DNA of 64,000 bases, taken from Bryopsis sp. KO-2023. Its lineage: Eukaryota; Chlorophyta; Ulvophyceae; Bryopsidales; Bryopsidaceae. The position numbers were made by a program, and so were the translations under genes. Shown piece by piece: positions 3,192 through 43,380 of this stretch (positions are counted from its first letter, which is position 1; every line of letters starts with the position of its first letter). Below the pieces are notes generated by a model, which saw only the letters and a program-made list of their open reading frames with translations, made no database searches and was not told where the DNA came from. The stretch is taken from assembly GCA_030272585.1 (NCBI GenBank), contig BSYQ01000001.1, positions 10,245,001-10,309,000 of the forward strand, in the 5' to 3' direction.

Positions 3192-6100
3192 TTTTATTAT
3201 TTTTTTTTTTTTGGGGGGGGGGCAAAACTATCGACACAAATGAGCCATATGAAGCCAGCAGATATTCCAGTTTTTTTCTGCGAGTCAAACAGGCAACAGG
3301 GCCTCCCATGATGAACGATAAATCGAAACAAGAATTTTCACACGCTCCTGTGTGAAATCTATCTTACTTCCAGGCGCTCTGGTAATGGTTCGCAGCATCT
3401 TGATAAGCCTGTTCTCTCTCCATGATTTGACCCATGTATTCCCAAGCTTTCGCACAGGATTTATTGTACTTTAGGCATTTTTTGCACAGATCTTGAGCCA
3501 AGTCAAACTTGCCCCCCTGGATGTGGATGTCAGCCAGTAGCAGCCAAGATCGTTCGAAGTCCTCCGCCTCGTCCATTCTATATTTGAGCTTCTGCAAATC
3601 GAAACGATTTCCAACCAATGGCATCAGCACACATTTTACCCTCATTTTGACAGCGCATCTTTTTTACACCCAAGTGAATCTATCAACAAAAGATTTGGAC
3701 ATTGAAAATAAATCGACAGTGTAAAGAAATCACCAGGGCATTCCGTGGCACAGTTCCGCATCCACTCTGCCCCCCACCCAAAATCAAAAATAAAAAAAGT
3801 TCCCAAAGCTCTGTGAAATTATATCACCTGCACTCTCTTCAATTGATTTCTTGCTTTTGGTTTTTGGCCTAATATCATGAATCCGGATGCCATGGCAAGC
3901 AAAACTGGAACATTCGTCTGATCTTTGCTGGCTATCGTCAGCAAATCTGCCAGCGCCTTTTGCACGTCCTCCAGATTTCTAGTGTACATCGTTGCATAGG
4001 CATGCAAAACATTGTATCGAGTGCTGTGTTTTGCATTGGCTGGAACCTGCATGCCACGCCATTATCATTCCCCCATCCACATTCCCCCCAATCAACCTGT
4101 CTGCGAGTTATCGCCCAAAAAAAATCACTGGTTCTTGAATGGATGCAAACAACTGAGCATCAATTGAGGTTGAACGAGCAAGTCAGACCAGCATCCCCCC
4201 CCGGACAGACACACTCACAAACACATGCCGTACTCACCTCATCCAAAAGGGACAATGCTAACATCGAAAGGCTTTCCTTTTCCTCCCCATCTTGCTCCAT
4301 CCACAAGAAATTATTGTCTGGATTCAACGCAACCTCCACCATTTGAAATAGGGCCTCCGCCGCCCATTCACTTTCCTTTCTCGCAGCACTGAAATGCGTG
4401 ATGGCCTCATTAGGCTTGTTGAGGAAGCGGCAATGCAAACCTTGGCAATACTCCAGGCCTGCAGATTTTTCTGAAGGTGGTTGGCTGCCGATTGCGGCGT
4501 TGATGTAGCCATCCATGTCTTGGATTTTCCCTGACAGTCTGAGGATTCGAAGCAGGCTGGCGAGAGCTCGAAAGTTGCATGGTTGCTTTTCAATGATATT
4601 TTGGAAGTGAAGGGCGGCTGAATCTGACATATCCTGAGCAATACCAGATGCCTTTTGAATAATCAAGATTTGAGTAAAACACCCCAAGCTTTGGAACTAA
4701 AAAAGCTAGAAAAATTTCCACATTACATACATTTCGGATGAATTTCGATTTTATTACTCACATAATTCAATCGATTTTTTTGTTAGTAATTTGATCACTT
4801 TTTTCTTATTGGGCGTTCCACATGGCACACCTTGTAGAACATGATTTCTGCAACCATCGTCCCGACATTTTCATTTTCAGGATCGGATTTCAGCAGCACA
4901 GTGCAGTGGTAGTTGGATTCCTCAATGTTGCCTTGAGCCAAGCAAATTCTTGCCAGCGCTTCTCGAACCGGCACCGATCCTTCACAGTGTTCCAATGCGC
5001 TCTTCAAAATTTCCTCGGCCTGGAAAAATAGAAACAGCAAGCTAACACTACAACGAACAAAAATTTAACAGGCCCAAATAAACACTGAAAATAATATATA
5101 ATGCGATATAAATTGACATCTTAACGGATGCTCTCCAGCATCAGAATTCGCCGAAGAGAGAAATTTGATCAGCGAAAAAAACCCAAAAAACAAACCTTTG
5201 CATACTGGCGGCCCTCCATGTGGTGTTCCCCTAACGCCAGCCCTATGGATGATAGCTTTTTCTTTCGGTCGTTGATTAAATCAGGATGCTCCCCCCTCAT
5301 TTTGGCAACGACCTCCAGATTCAAGTCGAAAGCTTCTTGCTGCTTCCCGATGAAGTCATCGATATTTCCAGCGCTTCGAAAAACCTTGGCGAGCAATACT
5401 AACCTGCCCCAACAAAAAGAAGAAGAAAAAAACGATCCTTTTCCTTAATGGGGTTTTCAATATTTTCACACATCCTTACATACATTCAGCACGTTATCTT
5501 GCTTAGATAAAAAAACTATCTCATGCTTTTTGGAAATAGCTGTTCGTTTTCTTTTCCCAGTCACAAGCTCAACCCCGTTTTTTTTCTTCTTTTTTTGAGT
5601 TTCACCACTTCTTTTTTTTGGGGGGGTTAAGTTTCACCACTTCTTTCTTAATTCTTTTTGTTTCTTTAAAGAATCTATTATCGCTTACGTGTCCACAATC
5701 AGTGTTTGCTGTTCCACAGGTCTGGTGATTTGCTTGGCCAGACCCAGAGCCTTGTTCAACACTTGGACCGCTTGATCGTGCCTCTTCAATCTCAGCAGCA
5801 GCATTGCCAGATCATGCTGAAATCTCAAATGCATGGGGTTGTTTCTGATCGCCTTGTTGTAGAAATCCACGGCACGCTGTTGTATATCGTGTTTTGTTCG
5901 TTAGTTTTAAGACACAAGGCCAAATTTCGTCAATTCCAAAGCTCCAGCTGAAAATATAATTTTCAGGGAGGTAGTGCTGTGCTTTTTCAAGGTTTGTGGA
6001 CAAACCAAAGTTTGTTTGGGTTTTTTTCAAGCTTATCCATCAGAGTGGAATTTCTATCCTCGGTAGATTTTTTGTTCCCTGGACATTGGCCAACTTTCAG

Positions 6101-9100: not shown

Positions 9101-11064
9101 TCACCATTTGATAGCATAGTTCCCCATTCTTTGATTCCATTATCTGGATTGCACTTTTCAAATCTCGAACAATAGAAGCTGACGTTTTGGTGTTTCCCTC
9201 GCAGACGATGCTGTGCATAGCTGCAAATGTGACAATACACAGTCAGTCAGTCAACCTCAAGCAATGCCAGGCAAGTATTTCGGACTGTTTCCTGTTCTTA
9301 CACTTCATTCATCCCCCTTGATTTCGTGATAGAACTCTGCGCTTGCTTTCACACTTTGCAATTTTTTGCCAGCAAGAAAAGGGGAACTCAAAAGGGGGCA
9401 GCAGGGGGGGGGGGGATTTTTGAAACAAAGGGAGGTTAAATTTTGAGGAAAAAGGCAGTTTTATTCACCTTTTATGAGCAAGCCATCGATATATCTGGGG
9501 TCAGACGCCAGCATTCCTGCAACGCTCTCCATGGCTTCGTCCCACCTGTTCAGGGCGAGCAGCAATCTTGCAACCTCGCTGGCAGCTGGGAAAAACCATG
9601 GATGTCTGGCCATTGCCTGATTAAGAATCACAACCCATCAACTGCCAAGTTACCTTTCCTCACAAAACAAAATCTTAACAATGTTTCGATCAGTGTTTTC
9701 GAATACCTCTTGTAGCACAGTCAAAGCCCCTCTGTAATCTTTCTTCATTTCAAGTGCTTTTGCCTTCCCCATCATTCCCTACATTTCCCCCGAAAAACAC
9801 ACACACAAAAAAACGGTCTTCTCATGCTCACACTTCTTGACCGAAATCTCATCACACATAGTGTGACTTCTCTTCTTCCACTCAAAAGGTACATATGGAA
9901 AACAAGCAAACAAATGCATCCATACAGACATTAATAACAGCCCCATCGTTTGCAGGGCGGTACATGGGTGCTTTCAGCGTCGATGTGATAATTTTGAAAA
10001 AATATTATCAGCAACATAGCCCACCTCAATGTGAGGTTCCAAGAGCAGCACAGCATCAAAGTGGCCCAGAGCTTCCTCTATTTCATCCTCCATGTCCAGA
10101 CCAAAGTCATCATTTTGCTGACTGATTATCATCCATCCCAGCAACACTTGAGCCATGCTGTCATGGCCCGACATTCTGAGCACCCTTTCTATCAACATTC
10201 TGGCTCGCTCTACTGACCCAGAATGCCAATAGAATTGAGACAGCAGGATGGTCGCCTGTTCTGAACAGGTTTTCTCCAGCATCTGAGGGAAAAAGAAACT
10301 GCTACATACTGAGACTGTTCTTCCAGCGGAAAAAAAAAGCATGGGTGGATGTTTCTTGAGTTTTCTTGTTGTTCAGGTGTCTAGATTTTTGTTTTACTCG
10401 TTTCCACTTTTTTTTTTTGGTTTCCACCGGTTTTATTTTATTCTATTCTTTCTAGTGATGACCAACTAGCAAACTTTTACATGAATTCCCCTTGCATCAG
10501 TGGAAAAGGAAGTTCACCAGCAGATACCACCATTGGGTCGAGAAGTTAAACGAAAAGGTGACGTCTAAGAAGGAACACAAAGAAAACGTCATGGGCGTTA
10601 CGTGTTTTACATGCTCGACCAAACAACGTCATACCTCGACTTGGGACGTCAAACTAGCGATGGCTTCGTGGTCCACAACCTTCGCAGACTGATGCGCCAA
10701 GATCATCGCAGCTGTCGCGGCCGGGGATGTATCTGGTAAGGGCGGCAAACGTTGCAGCTCTTGTAGAGCCTAGCATCCCCGATAGAATTCCGCTCAAAAG
10801 TCGTTCGAGGCAACCACCGTCAGAGTCGTCCCGTGACAGAGTGGGCTGTATCTCCTTCGAAGTTGCGCTGTTCGGTGGCGATGATGGTGTGTATACCTCT
10901 GAATAGCTTCCCTCCAAAATCTTGCCATAGATCAGCCAGAACCGCGAAACGTGATCCCCTGGGCTCCTTTTTACGACTTCCTTGCAAACCGTCTGCAGGT
11001 GCTGTGGGTAGTTCGAACGAGCATAGAAGTGTACCAGAGCCAGAACTCTAGTGGAGTCCGCCAT
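2919..11064 (-). CDS. IFT139: Intraflagellar transport protein 139 (TTC21B-like)
   Basis: A long TPR protein on the minus strand in about 20 exons. It starts MADSTRVLALVHFYAR (ATG at 11062-11064), next exon 10769-10635, then exons near 10282-10024, 9226-9107, 8431-8167, 7944-7755, 7576-7262, 7078-6897, 6763-6526, 6401-6224, 5879-5690, 5405-5196, 5020-4832, 4653-4236, 4048-3829, 3594-3369 and the last at about 3090-2919. The C-terminus contains QVGYKLAFNYLK and ends GLRP, typical of IFT139. Dozens of degenerate TPR helices fill the protein, e.g. LGEALMHIQEPEKAILAFES. Known role: a peripheral subunit of IFT-A, which drives retrograde transport and entry of membrane cargo into cilia. Many exon joins are in phase, and I saw no break. 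A TIR element lies 54 bp upstream of the start codon, so the promoter has probably been displaced or rebuilt. Confidence 0.93.
3137..3225. repeat. TA microsatellite followed by T and G runs
   Basis: A (TA)n tract at about 3137-3182 is followed by long T runs and a run of G, all inside the last intron of IFT139. This is simple slippage sequence. Confidence 0.9.
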
Positions 11065-11111
11065 TCTTCCCCTTGGGCGATGAACGAACCAACGACGTCA
11101 GGATCGTGTCT

Positions 11112-11118
11112 CCATTGT
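11112..11118 (+). repeat. Left target-site duplication CCATTGT
   Basis: CCATTGT immediately precedes the left end of the TIR element. The same 7 bases, in the same orientation, follow the right end at 14566-14572. The bases on either side of the pair differ. Confidence 0.6.
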
Positions 11119-11313
11119 GAGGACCCCGAGGTAACCTGCGCATGGTATCATGGTACCCCCGTGTTACCCCATGATACCCCGTGATACCTCCATGATACCC
11201 ATGATACCCATGATACCCAATTATACCCACTGATACCCACGATATCGTCGATGCCCGCCGATACCAGCGACAAACGCAGAAACGCCTCGAAGGACCGAGC
11301 CCGTCGAGGAGAC
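11119..11313 (+). repeat. Left terminal inverted repeat
   Basis: About 195 bp, matching the reverse complement of 14381-14565 with a few gaps. It carries about eight GATACCC-like units at 11147-11245 and then the block GATATCGTCGATGCCCGCCG. The extra units relative to the right arm suggest unit-number slippage. Confidence 0.85.
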
Positions 11314-12369
11314 GTCGCACGAAGAGAGAGCGCACACCCCGACCACTTCGGAAAATCGGTGGTGTGCCAGTGCTGATATATACACATATTGTGGGTTGTT
11401 TTCAGATCGAGGGCCCAGAGTTTTATTCAAATAAAAAAAAAATAGATACGATTTCCAGGTCTTTTGTCTTGGACATTTGTAGGCTTCGGATAAGATTGTT
11501 GGCATTGGGGGGGGGGGGGGGCAGAAGCAGCAGTAGCAGGACCCTTGTTTAATGACCAATGTCTGGTGTAGGGTGCCCAGAGTTTCCATATGTGAGCAAG
11601 CCAAAAAAATCAGCGTGCAATCAGATCCTGGGGGAAATGGGGACGTCTTTGGGGGGGCTCGGGGGAGAGTCAGGAGCTCAGGGAAATCCGCAGCAAGGGA
11701 TTTCACGAAAGCTGTGTGACCTTGGCAAGAGACAAGGTGAGAAGTCCATTTTAATGGCTCCTGGCGAGTTATCATGGCAAACTGTAGGAAGAAAAACGGG
11801 CTTTTGACTTCGACCAGCGGAGTGGTGAAGGGTTATACAAATCGACTTCACAGGTTAGGATCGACACGAGGGAATTTAGTTTCGAGTTTCCAGTTTTTTG
11901 TTTTAAAACGTTTTAATACAATTTATATGTAATGTTACACATCAAATTACCCTCTCACGCCCATTTCTTCAAAAAAAAAATTCAAAGGTCAAAACAGCTA
12001 TCTCTTTGAACGCTGAGAATGTGATAGTGTGTTAGAGTTGAAAGCAAAACGCTGTAGAGTGATTGTGTCTGCAGTACACTCTGTTGTTGTTCACGTTTTC
12101 TGGAAACTCAGTTGTGAAATGGCTGCTAGGCAAATGTGGCAACTGTGTCAGTATATTTTAGCATCGTTCGCCACAGTTTTCTCCGAGATAAAACCCATTT
12201 CATGGATGCCATGAAATCACATTCATGAAATATCACCCTTGGGTTGTGGAAAGATGCACAGTTTTCGTAAATCGTCTGCGCGTGGACCGATCATATTATA
12301 TGTTTCGGAATTCGTTTTTGGTTGTTTCACTTTTTGGAGTGGCTGTGCACTTTCTTGGGTTTTATTCAG

Positions 12370-13455
12370 ACGATTGTCAAAGTCAACGATGCTGTAGTGG
12401 AGGCGATTTCTCAGTCTGCCTCCACCGTGTCCGACGGGGGGGATGGACAGGCACAAGCTGAAGTGGCAGCCACAGCTATCGGGAAGGCTGTGGCAAAAGC
12501 CCTTGCAGGAGCGGGTGTGGATTTAGAAGTCATCGGTCAAGGCTCCGCTAAAGGCATAGCATCAACCCAGGCTCCAGCTATAGCTAAAGCCACAGCCAAA
12601 GCAGTCGCCAAGGCGATTGCTGAAGTGACACAGGGATTCTGCCGAAGCCGAAACGACAGGAGGAAGAGCTGTGTCTGAGCAAAGAACCGTGGCGACCGCT
12701 GTTGCCAGGCCTGTTGCCAAAGTCTTGATTTTTGCTTTTGCTTATGTCGGCGATGGTATTATTGGCTGGATATCCTCATGCCTACTTCTGAGAAGAATGA
12801 TGTAAAAGAAGCGCGGCTATAAATATGTGTCAGATAAATAGCATGATCCTTATCCTTATAATTTTGGTGTTTTGTTTTCGGTCCAGGGGAGGTGGTGCCG
12901 GAAGCCTCTGGAGAAATCTCCTCTGAGGTCAAGGATGAATCGACTGCATCAGTGGACAGCAGGAGCGAAGCCACTGGGGAGGGGAGAGCCGAAGGCAGTG
13001 CGATAGGAGATGCTACAGCAAAACAAGTGGTTCCAGGGCAACCGTCAGAAGCCAAACCCACTGAAACAAAACCAGTGACTGACTGACTGACAGAGTCGGA
13101 CCCTGGCACAGCAAGCAGCGGCAATGAAAAGGTGGAAACCGGGCCGGAAGCGACTGGGGAGTCGGAGGAGAGTTCTTCTGGATCGACCTGGAATGGAGGT
13201 GGTGGAGGAGGTCAGGGCTCTGTCAAGCTCGTTACGGAGATTGGGAGCGGTGGTGATGAGTTGAGTGGGGAGGTGGGGATAGTCATGCTTCCAGGGGGGT
13301 CAGTCAGAGCCAGGACAAAGGGAAAGAGAAAGAAACCTAAGAAAGACAAGAAATCTAGAAGAGAAAGGAGACGCAATCGGAAGAACAGAGGCAATGATGA
13401 TGACTATAAACACATGAGGATGTTCCAAGGTTGCTTGCTTGTATATGAGGGTTGA
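12370..13455 (+). pseudogene. Ala-rich helical protein gene, cargo of the TIR element, probably damaged
   Basis: A splice acceptor (TTTTATTCAG, 12360-12369) opens an exon encoding TIVKVNDAVVEAISQSAS and then an Ala/Lys-rich stretch with units such as GKAVAKALAG and IAKATAKAVAKAIAE. Such heptad-like A/K repeats form long amphipathic helices and resemble fibrous or silk-like proteins. I do not recognise a family. Near 12630 the Ala-rich frame gives way to a frame reading SAEAETTGGRAVSEQ, which continues the same composition and suggests a frameshift. A second exon from about 12887 is acidic and Glu/Ser/Thr-rich. It meets an in-frame TGA at 13084-13086 inside a (TGAC)n tract and then continues in the same frame to a strongly basic tail (KGKRKKPKKDKKSRRERRR) ending at 13455. 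No convincing start codon was found. Confidence 0.5.
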
Positions 13456-13856
13456 TTCGATTTTTCAAAGGAAATCAAACCTCTCTGGTGTTATGATTTT
13501 GCTTCGCATCAGATAAAATGTTTTGTTTCTCCTGTTCTTTTTTACTGATGAATTTCAGTGTTCAGTTTGCTCTGTGTTGAGCCAGTTCAAGTTGTTTTAG
13601 GTGGGGCTATGCTTCCAGAGATAATGGGGACAAGTATTCTATGACAGAGGGAAGAAGGTTGATTTGTTCGTTTGTATGTATGGGAACACGTAGTTGATAA
13701 GACGAACAAGGCTTTTAAGGGTTTTTTGACAGAGGAGTATAATGGATTTTAGCAACGCTTACCAGAATCCATAAACCAGAAAATTGAGCTGGGCACGCGC
13801 ACATGGAACCCACAAGTGCTTTTCTCACCTCTTTCGCTGGAGCCAGCATCCTCGAG

Positions 13857-13964
13857 CCCGTTTGTCTTGTGTATCACAACCCTCCCTCAATTCGCGCGCT
13901 TCCCTTCTACCCCGTTTGTCTTGTGTATCACAACCCTCCCTCAATTCGCGCGCTTCCCTTCTAC
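13857..13964 (+). repeat. 54-bp tandem duplication
   Basis: CCCGTTTGTCTTGTGTATCA and the following bases occur at 13857 and again at 13911, with essentially no differences. This implies a recent duplication at the edge of the nested foldback. Confidence 0.85.
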
Positions 13965-14300
13965 CAGACACTCACACTCACAGTTCGCGCTTCCCTTCCA
14001 GACACACACTGAAACGGCTCCTGGCTATCACACCAAGAACTCGCTCACACTCACACTAAAACGGCTTCGCCGAACGGGCGAACGATCCCAAGCTCTAGAG
14101 CGAGTTGTAGCGCTTCCCTTCCAGACACTCACACTAAAACGGCTTCGCCGAACGGGCGAACGAACCCGAGCTCCAGAGCGAGTTCATGGTGTGATAGCCA
14201 AAATCCGTTTCAGTGTGAGTGTGAGTGTCTGGAAGGGAAGCGCGAACTGTGAGTGTGAGCTTCTGGTGGAAGGGAAGTGCGAACTGAGGGAGGGTTGTGG
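13929..14300. repeat. Nested foldback (inverted repeat) inside the TIR element
   Basis: The arms 13929-14046 and 14176-14300 are inverted copies of each other at roughly 85-90 percent identity by eye. Both contain the blocks ACAACCCTCCCTCA, GCGCTTCCCTTCCAGACAC, GGCTATCACACCA and GAACTCGCTC. The loop holds two copies of ACGGCTTCGCCGAACGGGCG. This looks like a separate foldback element or a former palindromic end. Confidence 0.8.
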
Positions 14301-14380
14301 TCGCCGTCGTTGTCTTGTTGGTTCGTCGTTTGCGGCGCCGACGTTTCGTCGTTTATCTCTTGATGATTGATTGACTGATT

Positions 14381-14565
14381 GTCTCCGTGACGGACTCGGT
14401 CTTTCAAGGCGTTTCTGCGTTTGTCGCTGGTATCGCGGGGTATCGGCGGGCATCGACGATATCGTGGGTATCAGTGGGGTATAATTGGGTATCATGGGTA
14501 TCATGGGGTATCATGGGGTATCATGGGTACCATGATACCCAGGCGCAGGTTACCTCGGAGCCCTG
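14381..14565 (-). repeat. Right terminal inverted repeat
   Basis: About 185 bp, the inverted partner of 11119-11313. It reads GTCTCCGTGACGGACTCGGT at its inner edge and AGGTTACCTCGGAGCCCTG at its outer edge, with the GGGTATCATGGG-type repeat block between them. Confidence 0.85.
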
Positions 14566-14572
14566 CCATTGT
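14566..14572 (+). repeat. Right target-site duplication CCATTGT
   Basis: An exact direct copy of 11112-11118, placed directly after the right inverted repeat. Confidence 0.6.
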
Positions 14573-15225
14573 ATGGTAACCACGCCAGAAACCCAAAATG
14601 ACGTGGACCTTCGGACGACGGACACGTGAAAGTCCATCGTGGGCGTCTTAATTGAAGTGTATTAAGTCATTAAACGGAGTTTTAAAAAGGGCTAAAGAGT
14701 AAAAGAGTTCTATTATGGTTTGTCTCGTTCAAGACAAACCATTATTGACTTCAGTTGCAAGTCCCCGCACCACCTCTGCAACGTGCTAATCGTCTCAGCA
14801 CATCCCAATCACAGTTGTGTCCTTTCCAGAAAACATCAGCACCACCATCAAGCAAGCCTGATTTGTCTGAATGTGTTGAATTCAGTGTGGCATTTTCTGA
14901 GTTTTATGTTACATCTATGGTGTTTGTTTGGAACACTTATTGGAGCATTTTAAAGACATTTTTGGTGACATTCTATGCCCACGATAAAAAATAAAATGCA
15001 GTTTAGGACAGTTCTCCCAAAGAAAAGCTCAAAATTCGTCAGACTAGCCATCGGCCTCCCTCAATAAAACAAACTCCCTAATCCCCCCTCCCAAAAGAAA
15101 AAAAGAAAAAGAAGCAAAACATCTTATTCTGCAGCTGAATAGCACCCCTCTCTCAAACATCTCGAATATCTCAGGAACCCCTCACAGTCAGTCTGAGGTT
15201 CTGAGGTCGATTGGGCCGCATGAAA
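14566..15225. other. 3' flank of the GH47 gene; small hairpin at 14715-14742
   Basis: No coding signal. It holds a perfect 11-bp hairpin, ATGGTTTGTCT / AGACAAACCAT with a 6-base loop (14715-14742). The part next to the mannosidase stop is C-rich on this strand, which means G-rich on the sense strand of that gene. Confidence 0.6.
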
Positions 15226-16788
15226 TCACCCCAGTCCCAGCAGGTTTTCCAGCTGGGACTGAGCTCTTTCGGGGGTCCATTGAGGGTCAAGGCTCAAAGG
15301 ATGTGCCTCCGTGTTGAACACCCAATTCTCGAGATCCACCTTGTTATCATCATCGAACAGCAAATACAAATACTTGAGACTCTCCGACAGAAAGAACGAC
15401 TCTTGTACATCATTGTAGCTCTTTGGGATGGTAACATCCTCCAGCCCGCTGTATCCACCTTCTGGAATCTTTGCATGTTGTTCCCAAGCCTGGAAAATGT
15501 TCCAGCCCCATCGTCTGTATTTCTCCTTGCCGGTGACCTTGAACAAAGTGTAGATGCTCTCGATGGTCTCTGGCCTCAACTTGTGTTGATTGTCGAAAGC
15601 CAGCTCGAGATCACTTCGCCCATCCAAGGGGAAAGCCACCAGCTCCGCTGCCAACCCGGTCTCATTCACAGTGCTGTACATCCTGTAGCAGGTTTCACAC
15701 AGATGCTCAGCCAGTTGCAGGCTTTTTCTCCTTCGATTGCGGTTGCCGATGTGCAGCGAACCCAATGCCAGCATTCCTGGGGTGCAGCAGCTCAAATGGT
15801 GCATGTAGTGGGAAACTTTGGTCTTGAGGTGGTTCCAGTCGCTGAGGTGGACAAGATTCCTTCCGTGAACGATCAAATGTCTCTCCATCCCAGCAACCAT
15901 CGCTGAGTAGTCCTCCCCGTACATCTGCTGCAATGGCAAATCCTCCCCCCAGGCACCCAGCTGAATGTACCGCTTCAGCAAATATTCATAGAAACTGTCA
16001 ATTCCATCCGAAAGTGTGTACCTGCCATCCTGGTCGGCTTGATCCATGCGAATCCTGTTCGGACGGAGCCCATCAAATGTGTCGAATTGATTTCTTGCCA
16101 CCTGGGCAGCTCTTTCAGAGAAGTTTCTGTACATCGAGTTCCCAGTCAGACGGGATAAGGCACCAAACTCCAATTGACAGCTACCCACATCAGCAAACGA
16201 AGTCACCGTGTGTGTTCTGTTGGGAGTCCCAGTCGTCAAATTCAGGGACGGGTAGGGAAATCCAAGGGCTGAGTCAAAACTGCCGATCAGACGATCCCCC
16301 AAGTCGATCGACTTCTGTAAGAATAAGCTGTCTCCAGTGAGGTAATATGTGCTCAGAAGCCCACCCAAGAAGCGAATCGTTGTTTCGAAAAACGAAACTT
16401 CTGCACCAGCTCTATCGAAGTCGAGACTGGTTTGGATCCACGCTCGACCTTGCTGGTATTCTTCCGACAGCCCCATGATCAACGCCGTGTCCAAGGCGTC
16501 CACTATCGTCAGACCCAGGCCTCCGAACGTGTTGCTGTGGTTTTGACTGAGGGGCTTCAACCCATCATGTCCCCACGCATACCGTCTGTACCCATTCCAA
16601 GCGTGAAGGAACGCTCGTTTAACCAGGATTTTTGCTTGTGACGCTTCTACGTTATCTACGCCGTCGGTGGCGCTGGGGCCCCTTGACAGAAGCGACGAAA
16701 CTCCTGACAAACCGATTGGATCTCTGCCGATGATATATCCAACGAGCACCGCGACAACGAAGCCAAAGAGATGGCTCGTGGGTTGCAT
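15226..16788 (-). CDS. Class I alpha-1,2-mannosidase (GH47), ER/Golgi type
   Basis: A single-exon gene of 520 residues. The ATG at 16786-16788 starts MQPTSHLFGFVVAVLVGYII, a short cytosolic tail and signal-anchor helix, giving a type II membrane protein. An upstream non-ATG extension exists but is not needed. Family marks include GLGLTIVDALDTALIMGL, ETTIRFLGGLLSTYYLTGD and the C-terminal VFNTEAHPL, whose Thr binds the catalytic calcium in GH47 enzymes. Known activity: removal of alpha-1,2-linked mannose from N-glycans, as in ER mannosidase I/MAN1B1 or plant MNS proteins, acting in glycan maturation and ER quality control. The length fits the family, and no inactivating change is seen. It is one of very few intronless genes in the window, which may reflect retroposition or intron loss. 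Confidence 0.92.
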   Translation of the reverse strand: MQPTSHLFGFVVAVLVGYIIGRDPIGLSGVSSLLSRGPSATDGVDNVEASQAKILVKRAFLHAWNGYRRYAWGHDGLKPLSQNHSNTFGGLGLTIVDALDTALIMGLSEEYQQGRAWIQTSLDFDRAGAEVSFFETTIRFLGGLLSTYYLTGDSLFLQKSIDLGDRLIGSFDSALGFPYPSLNLTTGTPNRTHTVTSFADVGSCQLEFGALSRLTGNSMYRNFSERAAQVARNQFDTFDGLRPNRIRMDQADQDGRYTLSDGIDSFYEYLLKRYIQLGAWGEDLPLQQMYGEDYSAMVAGMERHLIVHGRNLVHLSDWNHLKTKVSHYMHHLSCCTPGMLALGSLHIGNRNRRRKSLQLAEHLCETCYRMYSTVNETGLAAELVAFPLDGRSDLELAFDNQHKLRPETIESIYTLFKVTGKEKYRRWGWNIFQAWEQHAKIPEGGYSGLEDVTIPKSYNDVQESFFLSESLKYLYLLFDDDNKVDLENWVFNTEAHPLSLDPQWTPERAQSQLENLLGLG

Positions 16789-16840
16789 TGTGAGCTGACG
16801 TTTGAGACAAGTCCCGACCTTTCTTGTCCTCACCTTACAG

Positions 16841-17480
16841 CTAAGCAAGCAGCTGGACTCCTACGTTTCCGACCAGAGAGAGTGTCGTCGAGCCATGTTT
16901 CTGTACTTGGTCAATTTCACTGGGAGTGGCGTATGCATCCTTGAACACAAAGGATGTCAGCATTTTTTCAACCACGTAACGCTTGCTGAAAGATAATGAA
17001 ATCAAGAAGGTTGCATCAATCAATCAATCAATAATAACAACCCACAGCAAAAGCGAGGCGATATTCCTCTCTCTCTCTGGGGCTAGCAGATCGTTGTTTT
17101 ACTTGTGTTGTAAATCTTACGAAAGGAACAGAAACTGGGGAAGCATATCATGAAAGCTTGCAATACTTTGGGTAGCTCTTTTTGTAAGAACGATCAGTTC
17201 AACCCCCACCACCCTTAAATAAACTCCTCTAAATCCCTGTCTCCCACAATCTCCCAGATCTCCGACAACTGCCAGCCCAGGGTTTGCGATACCTGAAAAA
17301 AGCAAACGCAGGAGCAAAAGGAAAATGTGACCACATCTCCACAGCCTTGTGGGCAGTCCCTTGTGCTGGCAGCGAACATCAAGATGGATGGCGCGTTTGA
17401 ATAAAAGCCTGATCATCTCGAATGCTTGGCCACTCAAACGAAAGCTGAGTGGTTGCCACTGCCGCCCACAGCCTGGCACT
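16841..17480 (-). CDS. Unresolved short multi-exon gene
   Basis: On the minus strand a clear acceptor (TTTCAG) opens a last exon reading KRYVVEKMLTSFVFKDAYAT and onward, ending VQLLA and TAG at 16841-16843. Upstream, another acceptor (TTTTTTCAG near 17295) opens a segment readable as QTLGWQLSEIWEIVGD, and a possible start (MSARLWAAVATTQLSF) lies near 17483. I could not join all the pieces in one frame with certainty and do not recognise the family. The stop lies only about 50 bp upstream of the mannosidase start codon on the same strand, so the two are head-to-tail and very tight. Confidence 0.35.
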
Positions 17481-21517: not shown

Positions 21518-24500
21518 CTTCCGTTTTTTTTTTTCCTGAAAAAGCGGCCAATTAATGAAGGAATGAGAGGTTCTACTCGTTTTTGTGTGTATTTTGTGGT
21601 GGCGGTCTGCGAGGGTTCGCAGGCTCCCTGCAGATTTCTATTGACATGTGTTACGAGAATTTCTGGGCTGGGTTACAATGAGTGACGTACATGCGTTTTG
21701 TTTTTGCTTCTTTGCCTTTGTTCCATACATTCTGTCTTGTTCAATTTCCCTGCGCTCCTCAATTTTAGTCTCTGTGTATTGAGGTAGATTTTTTTCCCCC
21801 CCAACCCCCTCCAGAAAAAAAAAAAAAAAAAAGTTTAAAAGAGAGGGGGCATATGTTTATTTTTCCTTTTCCATAAAATCCAGTTTAAGAGAAGGTGGAT
21901 ATGTTGTTGGAAGAGGAAAAGGAGTGGGGAAGGGGGATAATTTGAAAAGAAAGAAAAAAATTGAGAAAAAAAATGATAGAGTTGAAATGCCTTTTAGAAG
22001 AGAGGAGCCTTGCAGAGAAAGGAAGAAAAAAAGGGAAGGAAGGAAAGGAAAAAAAAAAAGAAAAGGAAAAAGAAAAAATTGTAGAGAATTGCCTAATGGA
22101 GGGGCTAGGCAAGCAGAGGTGTGGAACAAGGAGGGGGGAAAATGAATGGGGGAAGGGAGGCAAAAAAAGAAGGAAAAAAAAAAGAAAAGGAGAAGGAAAG
22201 AAATCCTAAACATGATATCTTTCCGTTTGCCTTTCTCGATTTTATTTCGCTTCCCTTTGTGGTTTTTTTTGTTTTTTTTTCTTTCTTTTGGGGTTGACAT
22301 CGTCCTTTTTTTTTCAAGGGAAAAAAAAAGAGGAGAGAAAAAAAAATTGCAACACAGGATACCCAACCGGAGCGAATAGTTTCAATTTATGGATCAGTTT
22401 TTTTTTTCCTTTTTTTGTAGAATTTGTACATGGATGTGTGTTGGCAGACATGCGTTTGGCATTTGCTGGGATTTTATGGTGGTTTGCCACCCCTCAAAAA
22501 AAGAATTAAATCTGGCTGGAGGGGGTGCTACCAGCTTTCGCTTTTTTTAGTTAGGCTGTGTCACAGCAAACAGAAAGACTCTTTAAGGAAAAAAAAAGGG
22601 GGTGTGGGGGGGAAAAAAGAGAGAAAGATATAACCAAAAAGGGAAAAAAAATCGATATTTATTCTTCCTGCTTTTTTTTTTTTTTGATTGGCTTTTTTCT
22701 TTTCCCAACTACTTTTTTTTTTTTTTGAAAACCTGAAAGAAAAGGAAAAAAAAGAAAGGTGAGGGGAGAAACACGAGGCTTCATGGGGCCGGTGTGTGTG
22801 TTTGTGGTTTTTTTTTCCCCCATAAGAAATTGAGTGAGAAAGGAAAACCCATTGATTCTACTAGGGTTTGTTCCTTTTTCTTTTTCTTGGGTTCAATTGG
22901 TAGGTATGTGTTAAAATTGATGAAAGGATTTTTAAGCAAAGGGGGTTTTTGGGGAAAGGAGGGGTGGGGTGGGGGGGGAATTTTGGGGTTTCAGGGAAAG
23001 AAAGTGTGTACTCACAATGTGGATTAAAAAAAAAATCCTTTTTGTGTTGTGTGTGGGTGTATGCGTGGGGTTAATTTTTGGTCGAGATGGAGGAGAGGAG
23101 GGAAAAAGAAAGATATTCAATGACTAAAAACACTACTATCCCACAGGCTGGTCAAGGGTTAATTTTTTTTTTCCGTTTTGGAAGGAAGTCCCTTTTTTTT
23201 TGTAGCGGGTCTCCAGTTCGCAAGGAAGGGGAAAAAAAAGGGAAAAAAATATACACATATATATATACATATAGAGAGAGAGAAATCTTGATTAAATCAA
23301 ATTAAAAGGATTTAAGAAAAATGATGGTTGATTTGTCTGATCTGGATTTGATCTGAACTTTTTTTTTTTCAAACGCTCTTTTTTTTTCTGACACGAGAAG
23401 ATTAACTGGGTAGCTGCTACGACATTGTAAGGGAAAAGCATTGGATGGTGGTTTTGGGGGGGTTGGGGGTTTGGCATGATTGTAAAAGGGGAAAAAAACA
23501 CAAAATTGAACGGGGAAATGGGTTGAGGGAAATATCAAATCAAGCAAAACGGAAGATTGGTTCATCGGTGACCACACACTATATATATATCTATATATAG
23601 AGAGATGAGCATGGAAATTTTGTCAGAAGGAAAAAAAGAAAAGCTGATGGAACCACAACATAAAGAAGAGAAGGGGGGGGAAGGGGGAAAAAACGCACTC
23701 TGAACCATGGCGAATTCAATAGAGGTTTGTAAAAACAACTGTGCCGGCGGTTTTTTTATTTTTTTTTTCCAATATTTTTTTTTCGGGACAATCTCTATAG
23801 ACATGCATTTTGAAGTTGAAAGTTTTCTTTTCCTTGGCTTCTTTCAGTTTTCTCGAGTTTCATCACACAATTTTTGAACCAGGAAAGTGTGACGCAAGTA
23901 CATGACTGACTGGGCACATTCACACGGGGTCAATCTCGCCTGAGGTTGCAGTTTTATATGATCATATGTGCATAGCTTCTTTTTTTCTTATTCTATTTTT
24001 TTTGGAGCAAGGAGATCATCGACACGAAAAGTATGACTTTCAGTGTGAACATAGGAAGAGAAAAAACAGAGTGTGGAAATGTGGAGGGAAGGGTAAAAAA
24101 AAAGAGAAAGCTGTATGGCATGTTCATTTTTGTGAAGTGGTGGACCCTGGCAGAGAGGCAATTTGATGGGGTGTTTCATTAGGAAAAAAAAAAGTTCTTT
24201 TGTGGATGTCTCGGTTGTGTATTTTTCTTCTTTTTTTCTTTTTTTTGGGGAGAGAATGAAACTGTGGCGATCGTGTTTTGAACAGAAGAAAGGAAGGAGT
24301 CGGTAGATTGAATTGTGGGGTAAAAACTTTTCTGCATGTAGACTGGAACGCACACATAAAAAGAAGATTTGTCAGCTTTTTTTCTGTCTCAAGAAATTTT
24401 TGGGTGTGGGATGTCTCGACGCTGTTGTGGGGAAAAAGCACAAACTCATAGCGTTTATATGTTTATATATATATTATTAGTATTATATATGCAAATATAT

Positions 24501-26939
24501 ATATACCCAGGAGCTTCCGTGGTTACAGATGTTTTTTCTCTTGTTGGTTGTGGGGTTTAAACTTGGGTTTTGAACGGAAGAGTTGGGGCAAAGGGGGGGG
24601 GTTGAATCAAAGAGGGAAAAAAAGGAACAGGGGATGGTGCCAACAAGATAAGACGTGAATTCCTAAAAATACCGAAAAGGCATTGATCATCAACAACTAT
24701 AAAAACCAAAAGGAAAAAAAACTCAAAAAAGCATGCCGAGGTGCACTTTTTTTTTCTTCCTAACTACAAGTCGTTCCTCTTTTTTTTCTTTTTTTTTGCA
24801 CAATGACCCCCAATTTTTTTTTTTGTGCTTGGTCGATGAAAGAGAGAAAAAAGGGCGATTTTAGAAAAACAAATTTTCGGATGTTGGCAGGAAGCTTGAG
24901 AGAAGAAGGAAAGAGAGAGAGATATTGTTCATAATTTGGATAGTGGGGAAAAAAAAGGAAAAAAAAAATATGATCATCATGGATTTGATTTTTTAAAGCC
25001 TGTCTTTGACAAGAGGAAATTCTTACGTGTTTGGATATGTTTCCTTTTTTTTTGTTAGCATGTCTTACGTGAGTATCTTCTCTTTGCACTTGATCCACAT
25101 GCATTTTTTCTGCCCCCCCCCTTTTTTTTCAAGGTAGGCTGCACACTGCAGAGCAAACAAGCTTGTGCCTATTTATCAATCTTAAAAAAAAAAAAAAGCA
25201 AAGCCATGACACAATGATTTCTTCTTAAAAAAAAAAAAAAAAAAAAACAACGTTTGGGGCTTTGAAATGACGCAAGGCCAAATCCCTTTTAATTCATTTG
25301 CAAGGGTGCGCCCAGTGGAATATATGTTTTGGGACGAAAAAAAGGGAAAAAACAATGGAGAGGCAAAGGCTCGAGAAAGTGTAGAGGGAAAGAAAAGAGT
25401 GAGAAAAAAAGAAAAAAAGAGTGTAGGGAGGTGTCTTGTTTGGGTTTTCCTTTTTTTTTTAACTCCCCCAGCAACATTTTCTTTTTTGGTACCCCTATCC
25501 CTCCTTTTTTTTGGAACTTATTTTTTTTTTGGAGAGGGGGGTGAAAGGGAAGTGAAATCCCCGCGAAAATATCATCCACAAATATGATGGAAAGGGAAAA
25601 AAATAACTTTTTTTTTTAAAAGAGTTCGATGGTCCGTACATGAGTGTCAAGTGGTTTGTCTCTTTCTTTTTTTTTCTTTTTTTGTTTTCTCTCCGCAGGT
25701 GAAATATTATTAAAAAAAGAGAAAAAAGTAAAAGGAAAAAGAGTTGCTCTAAACCCACACTGGATGTTTGTGAGGGGTGGATATGGAAAAAGAAAGAAAA
25801 AAAAAAAGAAAAGAGAAAAAAAAAGTCAGAATCGAAGGTTGGATATTTCGAGCAATCTTTCGATATTGATATCTGACAAGCTGGTACCTTTTTAGTCGTA
25901 TTTAGAAAACAGAGATAAGAATAAGAGGAAAAAAAGAAAAACAGTGGGGGAGATTAGCCATTCTTACATTTTTGGGCTTTTGGTTGGAGTTGCTGTGCAA
26001 ATCACTCTTTTTTTGCGCATGTAAAAAGGGCTGATAATGGAGCATCTTTTCACACTCCGAAAGCAGGGATATTTGCAAAGCTGGTGAGTACCGTTATTAG
26101 GGAAAACAGACAGTAAAAGAGGAAGAAAAAAAGAAAAAAAAAGAAAAAGGAAGGGGGGTGGGTGGGAAATCGTTAGGATGGCTTATTGATTTTTTTTTTT
26201 TGGAGGTGCTGCAAATAGGCGGCGATTTTTCGATACTCCCAGCTTTTTTTGTTTGGATGACCACCGCATTGATCGTTTTGTTTTCATAGTTGCATATATT
26301 TTTGGGCCAGCTTTTTTTATTTTTTTGTTGCGACTTTTTTTTTTTTTTCAAGAAAAGGTCCCAAATCAAGTACTGACAACTTGGAGGAAAAAAAAAACAA
26401 AAAACATCTCTCTTTGTGGTTTTGTCTGATCCAAGATTAAGAAAGGATATCAGTTGGAAGACTAAAAAAAAAAATTGCAAAAAAAAAGAAACAAAAAAGA
26501 AAGAAACAAAACAGACAGGTTGGAGTAATGGGTTAATTTTGTGGGTTTTTTATAAAGAAAAGGAAAATAATTGTGTGAAAGAAGATGTACATTAAGCATT
26601 AATTGTGTACTATTTTGATGTTCTTTTAGCCTCGGGGGCTGCACAAAATAGAGATAGTATAAAATGCTTGGTTTCGATTTCTCGGCTCGTGGCTTGTATT
26701 GGAAGGTATTTTCGATTTTGATGGTCATCATCAAAAAAGGATAGAAAAAAAAAAGCAAAAAACACAGAAGGAAAAACAAGAACAAGAAAAAAAAAATACT
26801 GAGGACAAGAAGGATGGAAGAGACAGAGAGAGAGAAAAGAAAAAAATTACGAGATCATGTCTTTTTTTTTCCCGGGGGCAGGGAGGTGGTGATAGGGTTC
26901 TCTTGAAAAACTATTATTACATTTGTTGTGATGAATACG
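21518..26939. other. Gene-free homopolymer desert (5.4 kb)
   Basis: No supported gene on either strand. The region is a patchwork of A8-A18 and T8-T15 runs, G runs and purine-only stretches. C is markedly scarce on the plus strand: long segments such as 21840-22200, 22560-23120 and 25780-26160 contain almost none. All open frames here are Lys/Arg/Glu- or Phe/Ser/Leu-rich translations of these runs. Short TA and GA tracts lie near 23255-23290, 23580-23600 and 24460-24500. It lies downstream of a plus-strand gene and upstream of the 3' end of a minus-strand gene. Confidence 0.75.
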
Positions 26940-34549: not shown

Positions 34550-36801
34550 TTAAGCAAAGGCAAATTGACGCTCTTGACGATACCGCTGCAATGCCACGAT
34601 GGCTCGTCTGTGAAAGTCAAAAAAATAAAAAGTAAAAACTCAACATACTCCCTTTATTCATTATTTTATCTATTGATATTTCTTTTAATTTCAAAAAAGA
34701 AACCCAACAAGCCATGCCACTTCAGCCCTTTTCAAAGCTATTTTTTTCAAAACATTGGAAGTCCACAAAAACAACTTTTAACTTCAGCACCACTGAAAAA
34801 AATATTTATTTTTAGCGCGCCAGATGTCTCTTGAATATTCGGGGGCTATAAAACATGCCCAGAAATGCATCAATATTTTTCAATCATATTTTTTTAGAAG
34901 ATTCGATTTCTGGAACTCACCCAACAAGATAGAATGGCAGAATGAAACTGAGAATTCGAAGCACCATAATCTGGACAGTTCAAAAATAAAAACGAAAACT
35001 CAGACTCACGAAACCTCGGGAGGGGGAAAGGGCTACTCCCATTCAAATAACACGATGGATTTTGACAAGAGTGATTTCTCACACTCCAGTCTGACGCTTC
35101 AAAACTCTTGTTCCACTCCGGGCCAAATCTCTGGTGTTTTTCCAGATTTCTCACAATCACTTTTTTCGCCTAATGGAAGATAAATTTCAAGGTGAACCAA
35201 CTTCAATTAAAATAACAATTTCTTTCAGAAAAGAAAGTAAAAAGTTTCAAAGCATCTTTTCAGCTGGACCACGTACCGTCCATGAAGAGAAATGAGGTGC
35301 CCGCAGGGTGAAAAGTATGACATACAGAAGAGTTATGGTGAGAGCAATCACAACTAGCATGCGGCACCTTGAAAAAACAAAACAAAACAAAACAAAACAA
35401 TAACTATATATAAATAAGCCAAACCTCCTCCTCAATATCAAGAACGACTACCCTTGAAAACCAGCATGTTGCAATTTGCCTATTTTCCTATTCGTGAATT
35501 ATCCACCAGCCCGTCAGTTTTTCGGGCACCAGTTTTCTCCCATACACACTCGATTTTTCCTTCATTTTTATATATATACATGGTACAACTTAAGGAAAAA
35601 AAGACAAAACCTGAGACACTGAACGGACATTGGATAAAGCCTGCCAGCAAGCATCACTTATTCATCAAGGAGCTACATGCAAAAGGTGTTCTCTTTCCTT
35701 CTTTTGAAGATGCACCCACCAAAGTTTCTTGGCTTGACTACCACTTCCGTTCTCTTGTGGCACCTGAACAAGGGCAGGCTCACCCCCAAGTTGAGCAGCC
35801 AATTCAGCGTCCCTGGACGAAAATTTTGAAGCAAACATAAGCACAATGCAATGCAATCTTGCTTGTACATTATCTCCCAGCCAAGAGAAAAGGCAACTTC
35901 TTAGAAGCTTCCACCCTCAGAATAAACCCTAACCCCATCCCCATCTCGGGTAGGTCCCACCCAAGTTTATTTTATCTCCTGTATACAAAAAATTGTCAAT
36001 GGCTCACTTAAACTTGCTGAAGTGCACTTCTTCCTTTTGATTACCTCCTTTCTTGCATTGAAAGTTCCGCTTTGGCAATGGTGTCCATGAGCCGAGCCCT
36101 GTAGGGTTGGCGATACGTTTGGTTGCAAATTTCACATTTCAGGGCTCTACTTTCTTGGGCCCACTGCTCCAAGCATTTATAATGGCAAAATCTCAAGGTC
36201 CCCTCACACCCACAAGGTGCCACCATATCATCCGAATCGTCCGTCAGCAAGCAAATTCTGCAGTCAGCCACCGAGGCCTCCTCACAGGGGGCACTGGAAG
36301 ACCCAACTGCAAAAAACCAACAAGGTGCCACCATATCATCCGAATCGTCCGTCAGCAAGCAAATTCTGCAGTCAGCCACCGAGGCCTCCTCACAGGGGGC
36401 ACTGGAAGACCCAACTGCAAAAAACCAACAGGGGGCACTGGAAGACCCAACTGCAAAAAACCAGATAAAAATTAAAGTAAAATAGGAGTGGCTTCAGGAG
36501 AGAAAAAAATGAACACAGGTTTTCAAGTAAATTGCCACCTCAAGGGGGAATGCAACCAAGCAAAAGAGGAGTGCTGGACCTGTCTTCGTTGAGTATGGTT
36601 CAAATGGGGGAATGCGAGGGTCGCGTGTGGAAGGCTGTGTGGTTTCTTACCGCGCGCACCAACCCCCGCTTGGTCATCCAACAATTCCCGCGAGGTATCG
36701 GGACGCCCGGCTTCGAGATCTACTTCTTCGAACACCTCCCCAGAAGACGCGACTTCGTTCACTCCAGGTAGAGGTCGCTGGGCATCCTCGTTGGATTTCA
36801 T
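34550..36801 (-). CDS. RING-CH (MARCH-type) membrane-associated E3 ligase
   Basis: The first exon (from ATG 36801) begins MKSNEDAQRPLPGVNEVASS and ends before a GTAAGA donor near 36649. The next exon gives VGSSSAPCEEASVADCRICL and the RING-CH domain: CRIC, APCGCEGTLRFCHYKCLEQW and LKCEICNQTY, the C4HC3 pattern of MARCH ligases. Further minus-strand exons encode a membrane helix (MLVVIALTITLLYVILFTL, near 35,340-35,280), and probably a last exon reading RAIVALQRYRQERQFAFA, stop at 34550-34552. Internal exons between 34,620 and 35,240 are not resolved. Known role: ubiquitination of membrane proteins. Oddity: a 108-bp tandem duplication copies the splice acceptor plus the first half of the RING-CH domain. 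Confidence 0.75.
36213..36466 (-). repeat. 108-bp tandem duplication (plus a partial third copy) across a splice acceptor
   Basis: The unit beginning CAAGGTGCCACCATATCATC at 36213 recurs at 36321, a period of 108 bp (36 codons). A shorter third copy of its right end, GGGGGCACTGGAAGACCCAA, follows at about 36431-36466. On the minus strand each copy starts with GTTTTTTGCAG, a functional-looking 3' splice site, so three acceptors lie in tandem. Confidence 0.92.
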
Positions 36802-41361: not shown

Positions 41362-41390
41362 CTTCACAGTTCTAATTTGGAACTGTGAAG
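41362..41390. repeat. Perfect 11-bp hairpin
   Basis: CTTCACAGTTC, loop TAATTTG, then GAACTGTGAAG. It lies 40 bp after the RING-H2 stop codon. Confidence 0.85.
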
Positions 41391-41441
41391 ATTGATGTTT
41401 GTAATATTTAGAAGTTATAAATATTTTCAAACATCAATCTT
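41389..41441. repeat. Second, longer hairpin adjoining the first
   Basis: AAGATTGATGTTTG pairs with CAAACATCAATCTT, and inside them AATATTTA pairs with TAAATATT around a 7-base loop. About 22 pairs with one small asymmetric bulge. The final AAG of the first hairpin is the start of this one. Confidence 0.85.
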
Positions 41442-42102: not shown

Positions 42103-43380
42103 GTTTTTTTGTTTATCTTTATCTTCGATGGCTTGGTTGCAAACCAGCCTGCCGGTTCGTAGTGGGGGACTTGGGATTTCGGCTGGAAGTTGGTTTCATG
42201 CAGTAGCCTATTTTTCTTCTCTACATTTTGTTCGTCATGATTTGTCGATTCTTTCGGGGGTTTCTTTTTCTTCAAACCATCCTTCGTGGAGCTTTGCCGC
42301 TGTGCAACTTGATGATATTTTGCCGCCAGCAGCACTCAGTTCCCCCGAGGAGTGGTTCGCGAAGGAGCAGGTTACCCAGAAAGCGTTGACGTTGCTGGTT
42401 GGGGAGCGGCGGTTTGATGCTCTTTTGCGTCAAGGGTTCCGGCGGGATGAGGCGCGTTTGCGAAGTCTCTCTCTTCCTTATTCTGGGGCTTACCTTTCTG
42501 CTTTGCCTAATCAGGCGTTGGGGACGGAGCTTTCTTCGGCGGCGTTCAATATTCTATTACGATGGCGGTTGGGTCTCCCCATGTATGAGGATGGCGCTGT
42601 TTGTCCCATGTGTCATTCGTCCATGGATGTTTTTGGTGATCATGCTATCATGTGCCAAGTGGGGGGCAGTGTTTTGGCTCGTCATAATAGTATCCGGAAC
42701 TTTTTGTTCCATTTTTCTCGGTCGGCGGGTGTGCGTCCTCGCATGGAGTTGCACGTAGATTCTTCTTTTGAGCGTCCGGCCGACGTATTTTTTCCGTCTT
42801 GGCGGCATGGTAAGGCGTGTGTTATTGATGTCACTGTTTCGCATCCTTTACAGCAAGCCACTTTGGCTCGGGCTACTCGCGAAGCGGGGGCGGGCATTTT
42901 ACGTTGTGTGGATCGCAAGGCTCAAGTGGCTGAGAAATGTCATCGTTTGGGGTTTGATTTTATCTGTTTTGCGGCCGAGTCTTTTGGCGGGTTTTCTTCG
43001 GACAGTGGTCATTTGATTCGTTCTTTATCCCGCGCAGTTGCGACTTGTCAAGATCTCCCGGTTTCAGTTGTTGTTGAAAGAGCGTGGCAGCAGCTCTCTC
43101 TTTCTTTACATCGGCCTCAGGGTAACGCTTTTTTGGAGCGATCTTCTTTGTCGTTTGATTCTTTTGCTTTTGATCGAGGGTAGACACAGTATTGGGTTTG
43201 AGGTTGATGGATTGTGGACATAAATACGGACTTGTGTAATTAGCTTCTATTACGGTATTGGGTTTGAGGTTGATGGATTGTGGACATAAATACGGACTTG
43301 TGTAATTAGCTTCTATTACGGTTTGAGGTTGATGGATTGTGGACATAAATACGGACTTGTGTAATTAGCTTCTATTGCGG
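42103..43380 (+). mobile_element. Non-LTR retrotransposon (LINE), 5'-truncated 3' end
   Basis: An open frame of about 350 residues (42128-43183) matches the end of LINE ORF2. It has a zinc finger CPMCHSSMDVFGDHAIMC (CCHC spacing), then RHNSIRNFLFHFSRSAGVRP, then RPADVFFPSW and CVIDVTVSHPLQ, resembling the PD-(D/E)xK-like tail region of site-specific LINEs. No reverse-transcriptase YxDD or apurinic endonuclease domain is present, so most of the 5' part is missing, as is usual after incomplete reverse transcription. The remaining frame has no stop, so the copy is probably young. Its 3' tail is a threefold repeat (43196-43380) instead of poly(A). The short T-rich leader at 42103-42124 may be filler. 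The codon style is T-rich at third positions, unlike the host genes. Confidence 0.8.
43196..43380 (+). repeat. LINE 3' tail, three tandem units of 59-66 bp
   Basis: Units start with GTTTGAGGTTGATGGATTGT at 43196, 43262 and 43321, and each ends in TTAGCTTCTATTRCGG. The last 16 bases, AGCTTCTATTGCGGAA, resemble AGCTTCTATTACGGAA at 42085-42100 on the other side of the element (one mismatch). That pair is a plausible target-site duplication. Confidence 0.8.

Follow-up and report, generated by a model that had tools for sequence, protein, structure and literature searches.

Composite terminal inverted repeats (TIRs), in which a short, internally redundant motif occurs in varying number, have been described in Tm1, a Mutator/Foldback family of Meloidogyne, according to the available portions of that report (PMC3169594). 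In the same portions, a presumed gene of doubtful coding potential (Cg-1) lies inside the repetitive TIRs, and smaller inverted-repeat elements are nested in some Tm1 copies. Galileo, a member of the P superfamily, combines long, internally repetitive TIRs with mostly 7-bp target duplications and includes one copy without the transposase segment, as far as the accessible text of the two papers goes (PMC4168063, PMC3573991). Target duplications of 7 bp are also reported for hAT7 and Kyakuja in the excerpts available to us (PMC12730594), and a partial view of a further source places Kyakuja in Chlamydomonas and its relatives as well (PMC8226300). Among Mutator-like elements, Pack-MULEs carry long TIRs around non-transposase sequence, and MULEs are described with capture of gene fragments (PMC3310237, PMC6446971, both in part).

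Here we describe a locus, in what appears to be a green-algal nuclear genome, that shares features with each of these systems, lying within a 64-kb window (the whole stretch of DNA that was analyzed). We conclude, with a probability of roughly 85%, that it arose by one insertion of a class II (TIR) DNA transposon that is non-autonomous and of the foldback type, of which one copy is seen. We file it in this way because its TIRs are internally repetitive, a 7-bp duplication abuts its ends and none of its open stretches matched a Pfam transposase. Terminal inverted repeats and a target duplication adjoining both ends are features of the class II TIR order, internally repetitive TIRs are the structural feature of foldback elements, and the ordinary host genes on either side (IFT139 on the left, GH47 on the right) also count for an insertion. 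The locus resembles Tm1 in its repetitive TIRs, in a presumed gene of doubtful coding potential and in a nested inverted repeat. It differs from Tm1, as described in the portions available, in that the latter has 9-bp duplications, repeats of about 14 bp, terminal motifs of 7 bp that lie beyond the inverted repeat, a nematode host and some members that encode a putative transposase (PMC3169594). The first-pass annotation had been unable to assign the element to a named family; the TIR layout, the 7-bp duplication and the GATACCC-type repeats on which it drew are supported, but the element is not unassignable in kind and matches the Foldback type. It is very probably a further example of a familiar kind, a non-autonomous insertion without a recognizable transposase.

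Element boundaries and terminal inverted repeats

A TIR element had been placed at 11112–14572; the structure is real, but that range takes in both copies of the target site, and the element proper spans 11119–14565 (3,447 bp), as read from the sequence and then re-cut by script. The target duplication CCATTGT noted at first pass, located in the same two ways at 11112–11118 on the left and 14566–14572 on the right, is exact over 7 bp and abuts both ends of the element; the bases next to it differ between the two sides. Homology between the arms ends at most one base from the start of this repeat on both sides. The chance of a 7-base match was estimated from position pairs in the window, with 13 of 60,400 pairs matching in exact register and 163 of 60,400 when a slack of ±2 was allowed, both counts having used a spacing of 3,446 bp, one base less than the final element length.

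Alignment of the arms, which had been put at about 190 bp each, confirmed a left TIR of 195 bp (11119–11313, plus strand) and a right TIR of 185 bp (14381–14565, minus strand), identical at 163 of 173 ungapped columns. The 10 mismatches include the outermost base, and a further 34 gap columns mostly reflect repeat units gained or lost, suggesting that the copy is old or that its ends are imperfect. The best inverted-repeat score in the interval 10900–14800 was 187 bits, compared with at most 33.7 bits in 100 dinucleotide shuffles.

Both arms share one layout: the outermost 23 bp form a tip, GATACC-type units follow as an array, and a unique segment of about 48 bp lies innermost. From outside to inside, the left arm comprises the tip GAGGACCCCGAGGTAACCTGCGC, ten units and the inner segment; the right arm has nine units, and its outer end on the minus strand reads CAGGGCTCCGAGGTAACCTGCGC. 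The units follow a degenerate pattern and are spaced mostly 9–11 bp apart. At the extremities, the right end is of the CAGGG type (...CCCTG), and the left end is GAGGA, unlike CA or CAGGG ends. Elements of the hAT superfamily have CAGGG-like ends.

Search for further copies and relatives

No second TIR pair was present elsewhere in the 64-kb window, in which Rfam and tRNA scans also returned nothing. Exact matching of three long TIR strings (24–29 positions) to viral contigs yielded no stretches, and the 16-base tip yielded 21, which is near a rough chance estimate for the size of the collection. When both TIRs were compared by BLAST with 24 loci (the 21 with the 16-base tip and 3 with GATACCC-like arrays), the best 12 rows all fell in three loci of unrelated genomes, at the GATACCC repeat. 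The whole element had no match among plasmids and phages. In the literature searched, we found no paper for any of five TIR strings and no algal element that combines TIRs with 7-bp duplications.

Coding potential of the interior

We identified 64 open stretches of at least 35 codons in the six frames of the element. Scanned singly, none of the 64 matched a Pfam transposase at an E value of 1 (for 10 of them the search was also taken to E 10), and none of the five scanned against NCBIfam did so; the absence of a transposase motif noted at first pass therefore holds for these stretches, with the proviso that a scan of this kind could miss a transposase that is badly decayed or divided among numerous short exons. 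Apart from the RP1-2 match described below, weak Pfam matches involved six families with one member each (best E 0.032 to 0.47), none of them a transposase.

The first-pass annotation had also described a multi-exon, Ala-rich gene as cargo. The candidate, possibly a decayed gene fragment, includes an Ala-rich open stretch on the plus strand (12271–12675), which is closed by a TGA at 12676–12678; Ala-rich residues appear to continue in another frame at 12629–12802, with an apparent frame jump near 12640. A second open region lies in the original frame (12862–13452, plus strand), is interrupted by a TGA at 13084–13086 and is Gly/Ser-rich, then Lys/Arg-rich; its two stretches matched no Pfam family bearing on function at E 1. 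The Ala-rich stretch matched Pfam RP1-2, a tubuliform spider-silk domain, at E 2.4e-4 and 21.5 bits, below the cut-off of 25. We read this match as composition, given that 24 of the 94 residues encoded by 12379–12660 are alanine. Against solved structures the same stretch gave two hits (best E 0.41), and none of 154 pattern-matching stretches in viral contigs was confirmed as a relative; in non-eukaryotic collections such as this, the lack of a homologue carries little weight. Three acceptor-like polypyrimidine–AG sites were seen, two of which (12369 and 12886) precede open stretches.

How unusual these frames are was judged from 300 first-order random sequences of the 3,067-bp interior, in 180 of which the longest open stretch reached at least 135 codons. 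The longest stretch observed, 205 codons that lie over the palindrome, had an equal or longer counterpart in 10 of the 300, and the third-longest (150 codons) was matched in only 4; the interior as a whole is thus somewhat more open than random sequence, and a decayed gene would be compatible with this. Codon scores for the three parts of the candidate gene were 0.07, 0.07 and 0.20, compared with 0.24 and 0.26 in two host genes, a small and circular yardstick in that both of these genes belong to the four pieces of host sequence on which the score was trained. For the second part, another frame that contains stops scored higher (0.21), and for the first part a minus-strand frame reached 0.08. 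With its frames interrupted, its length not unusual for random sequence and its codon usage weak, the multi-exon gene is not established, and the broader description of gene cargo is likewise weakened, the sub-threshold RP1-2 match being the sole family signal.

Two further structures named at first pass, a 54-bp duplication and a second inverted repeat, were both recovered. The duplication occupies 13857–13965 and was found by repeat scan as a tandem repeat of period 54 (2.0 copies, 100% matches). The second inverted repeat, identified by inverted-repeat scan and folding, is a composite foldback at 13925–14309, with arms within 13929–14299 that form a mixture of direct and inverted modules. 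Folded as single-stranded DNA, 13925–14309 reached −139.7 kcal/mol compared with a shuffle mean of −57.2 kcal/mol (z = −20.2), and none of 100 shuffles was as stable. A 9-base direct repeat, TTGTCTTGT, stands at 13916–13924 and 14310–14318, 4 and 10 bases off the foldback arms, and could be the target duplication of a nested insertion. The signal is weak: by estimate, such a match has a chance of a few per cent or more with about 11,000 position pairs compared, and the left copy recurs within the 54-bp duplicate, at 13862. Taken as a whole, the interior looks like a passenger, possibly made up of a captured host gene fragment, now decayed, and of a smaller foldback nested within the element.

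Classification and alternative explanations

One copy without a transposase does not settle the superfamily of the element. With a stagger of 7 bp and a right end of the CAGGG type, it fits an enzyme like those of hAT7/Kyakuja or P better than one of Mutator. Kyakuja, with its CA..TG ends, resembles the ...CCCTG of the right end here; it differs in that both Kyakuja families described lack TIRs in the excerpts available (PMC12730594), the present element having long TIRs and a left end that begins with GA. For hAT7 and Kyakuja alike, the likeness in duplication length stands.

Two narrower versions of the foldback reading were weighed, and their odds are therefore not to be added to its own. 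The first, that the element belongs to the P superfamily and is Galileo-like, draws on the likeness in TIR architecture and on the 7-bp duplication, which is the length seen in most Galileo copies. It seems to us rather unlikely, since the target CCATTGT is unlike the GTANTAC of Galileo. No P-type transposase was matched by Pfam in the 64 open stretches, and Galileo further differs in TIRs of up to kilobases and in its Drosophila host, in the text of those papers accessible to us (PMC4168063, PMC3573991). The second holds that this is a Pack-type Mutator-like element whose long TIRs surround a captured, intron-bearing host gene, and we consider it about equally doubtful. The two acceptor-like sites ahead of open stretches speak for it, together with the long TIRs and the capture of gene fragments known from MULEs, whereas no donor was paired with the candidate acceptors and the cargo gene is only a candidate. 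Pfam matched no MULE transposase in the 64 open stretches, but a non-autonomous copy would not be expected to contain one. Its duplication of 7 bp also falls short of the 8–11 bp given for MULEs in the sections available (PMC3310237, PMC6446971), which argues against membership in the Pack-MULEs but leaves a Pack-like mode of action untouched.

We regard as improbable a more ambitious version, in which the locus represents an undescribed green-algal foldback family with 7-bp duplications, a transposase of unrecognized lineage, capture of host fragments and, here, an altered promoter of a ciliary gene. Least probable of all is a non-transposon origin, a local inverted duplication of a GATACCC-minisatellite stretch around ordinary DNA beside a chance direct repeat, for which GATACCC-like short arrays in unrelated genomes (3 loci) and the lack of a second copy in the window could be cited, and against which stand the arm homology that runs to within one base of the 7-bp repeat on both sides and the chance of such a repeat (13 to 163 of 60,400).

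Under the preferred reading of a non-autonomous, foldback-type insertion, an autonomous relative located elsewhere in the genome would supply a transposase that binds both the tips and the GATACC repeats, pairs the ends, excises the element and inserts it at a staggered 7-bp cut. Repair of this stagger would then leave CCATTGT on both sides, and slippage or unequal exchange may since have altered how many units the GATACC arrays hold. That the GATACC units serve as binding sites is proposed by analogy with Mutator elements, whose long TIRs are said to hold transposase binding sites in the parts of the sources available (PMC3310237, PMC6446971).

Taken alone, this is one ordinary-looking non-autonomous insertion. 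In print, as far as the sources at hand extend, we found foldback-type elements with 7-bp duplications in Drosophila, and an example from an apparently green-algal host would widen that range; given the whole genome, the TIRs could also lead to the transposase.

Genomic setting

The gene to the left of the element encodes IFT139 on the minus strand, with a predicted ATG at 11064, a start placed by reading. With E 1.5e-15 and 59.9 bits, the start peptide matched solved chain 8bda_E (Intraflagellar transport protein 139), whereas the two best-scoring chains of Tetratricopeptide repeat protein 21B reached 26.0 bits; a later exon (4160–4687) matched 8bda_E at E 4.4e-27 and 98.2 bits, compared with 85.6 bits. 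The 8bda structure is from Chlamydomonas and the 21B chains are mammalian; the host is probably a green alga with flagella. Mesostigma, for which a mean intron length of 1,142 bp is given, was one host considered. On the right, a GH47 mannosidase gene occupies 15226–16848, also on the minus strand, and genes in the window are broken by introns, which gives it a eukaryotic look.

Measured from the predicted start codon of IFT139 (minus strand, 11064), the target site is 47 bp upstream (stretch 11062–11118). The element consequently now forms the upstream region of IFT139, which it may supply or disturb, and an insertion just upstream of this ciliary gene could bear on its expression.

Several other features were seen elsewhere in the window. 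An open frame of 351 amino acids at 42128–43183 had no Pfam match at E 0.01 and is, in our estimation, reminiscent of proteins of non-LTR retrotransposons in their C-terminal part. Tandem arrays were present at 36208–36473 and 43186–43380, with units of 108 bp (99% matches) and 66/59 bp (92–98% matches), respectively, and a 54-bp palindrome (87% self-complementary) at 41388–41441. The region 22001–26000 showed strong strand asymmetry over two 2-kb steps, with a GC skew of 0.35 and 0.28 and a low GC content of 0.37 and 0.36.
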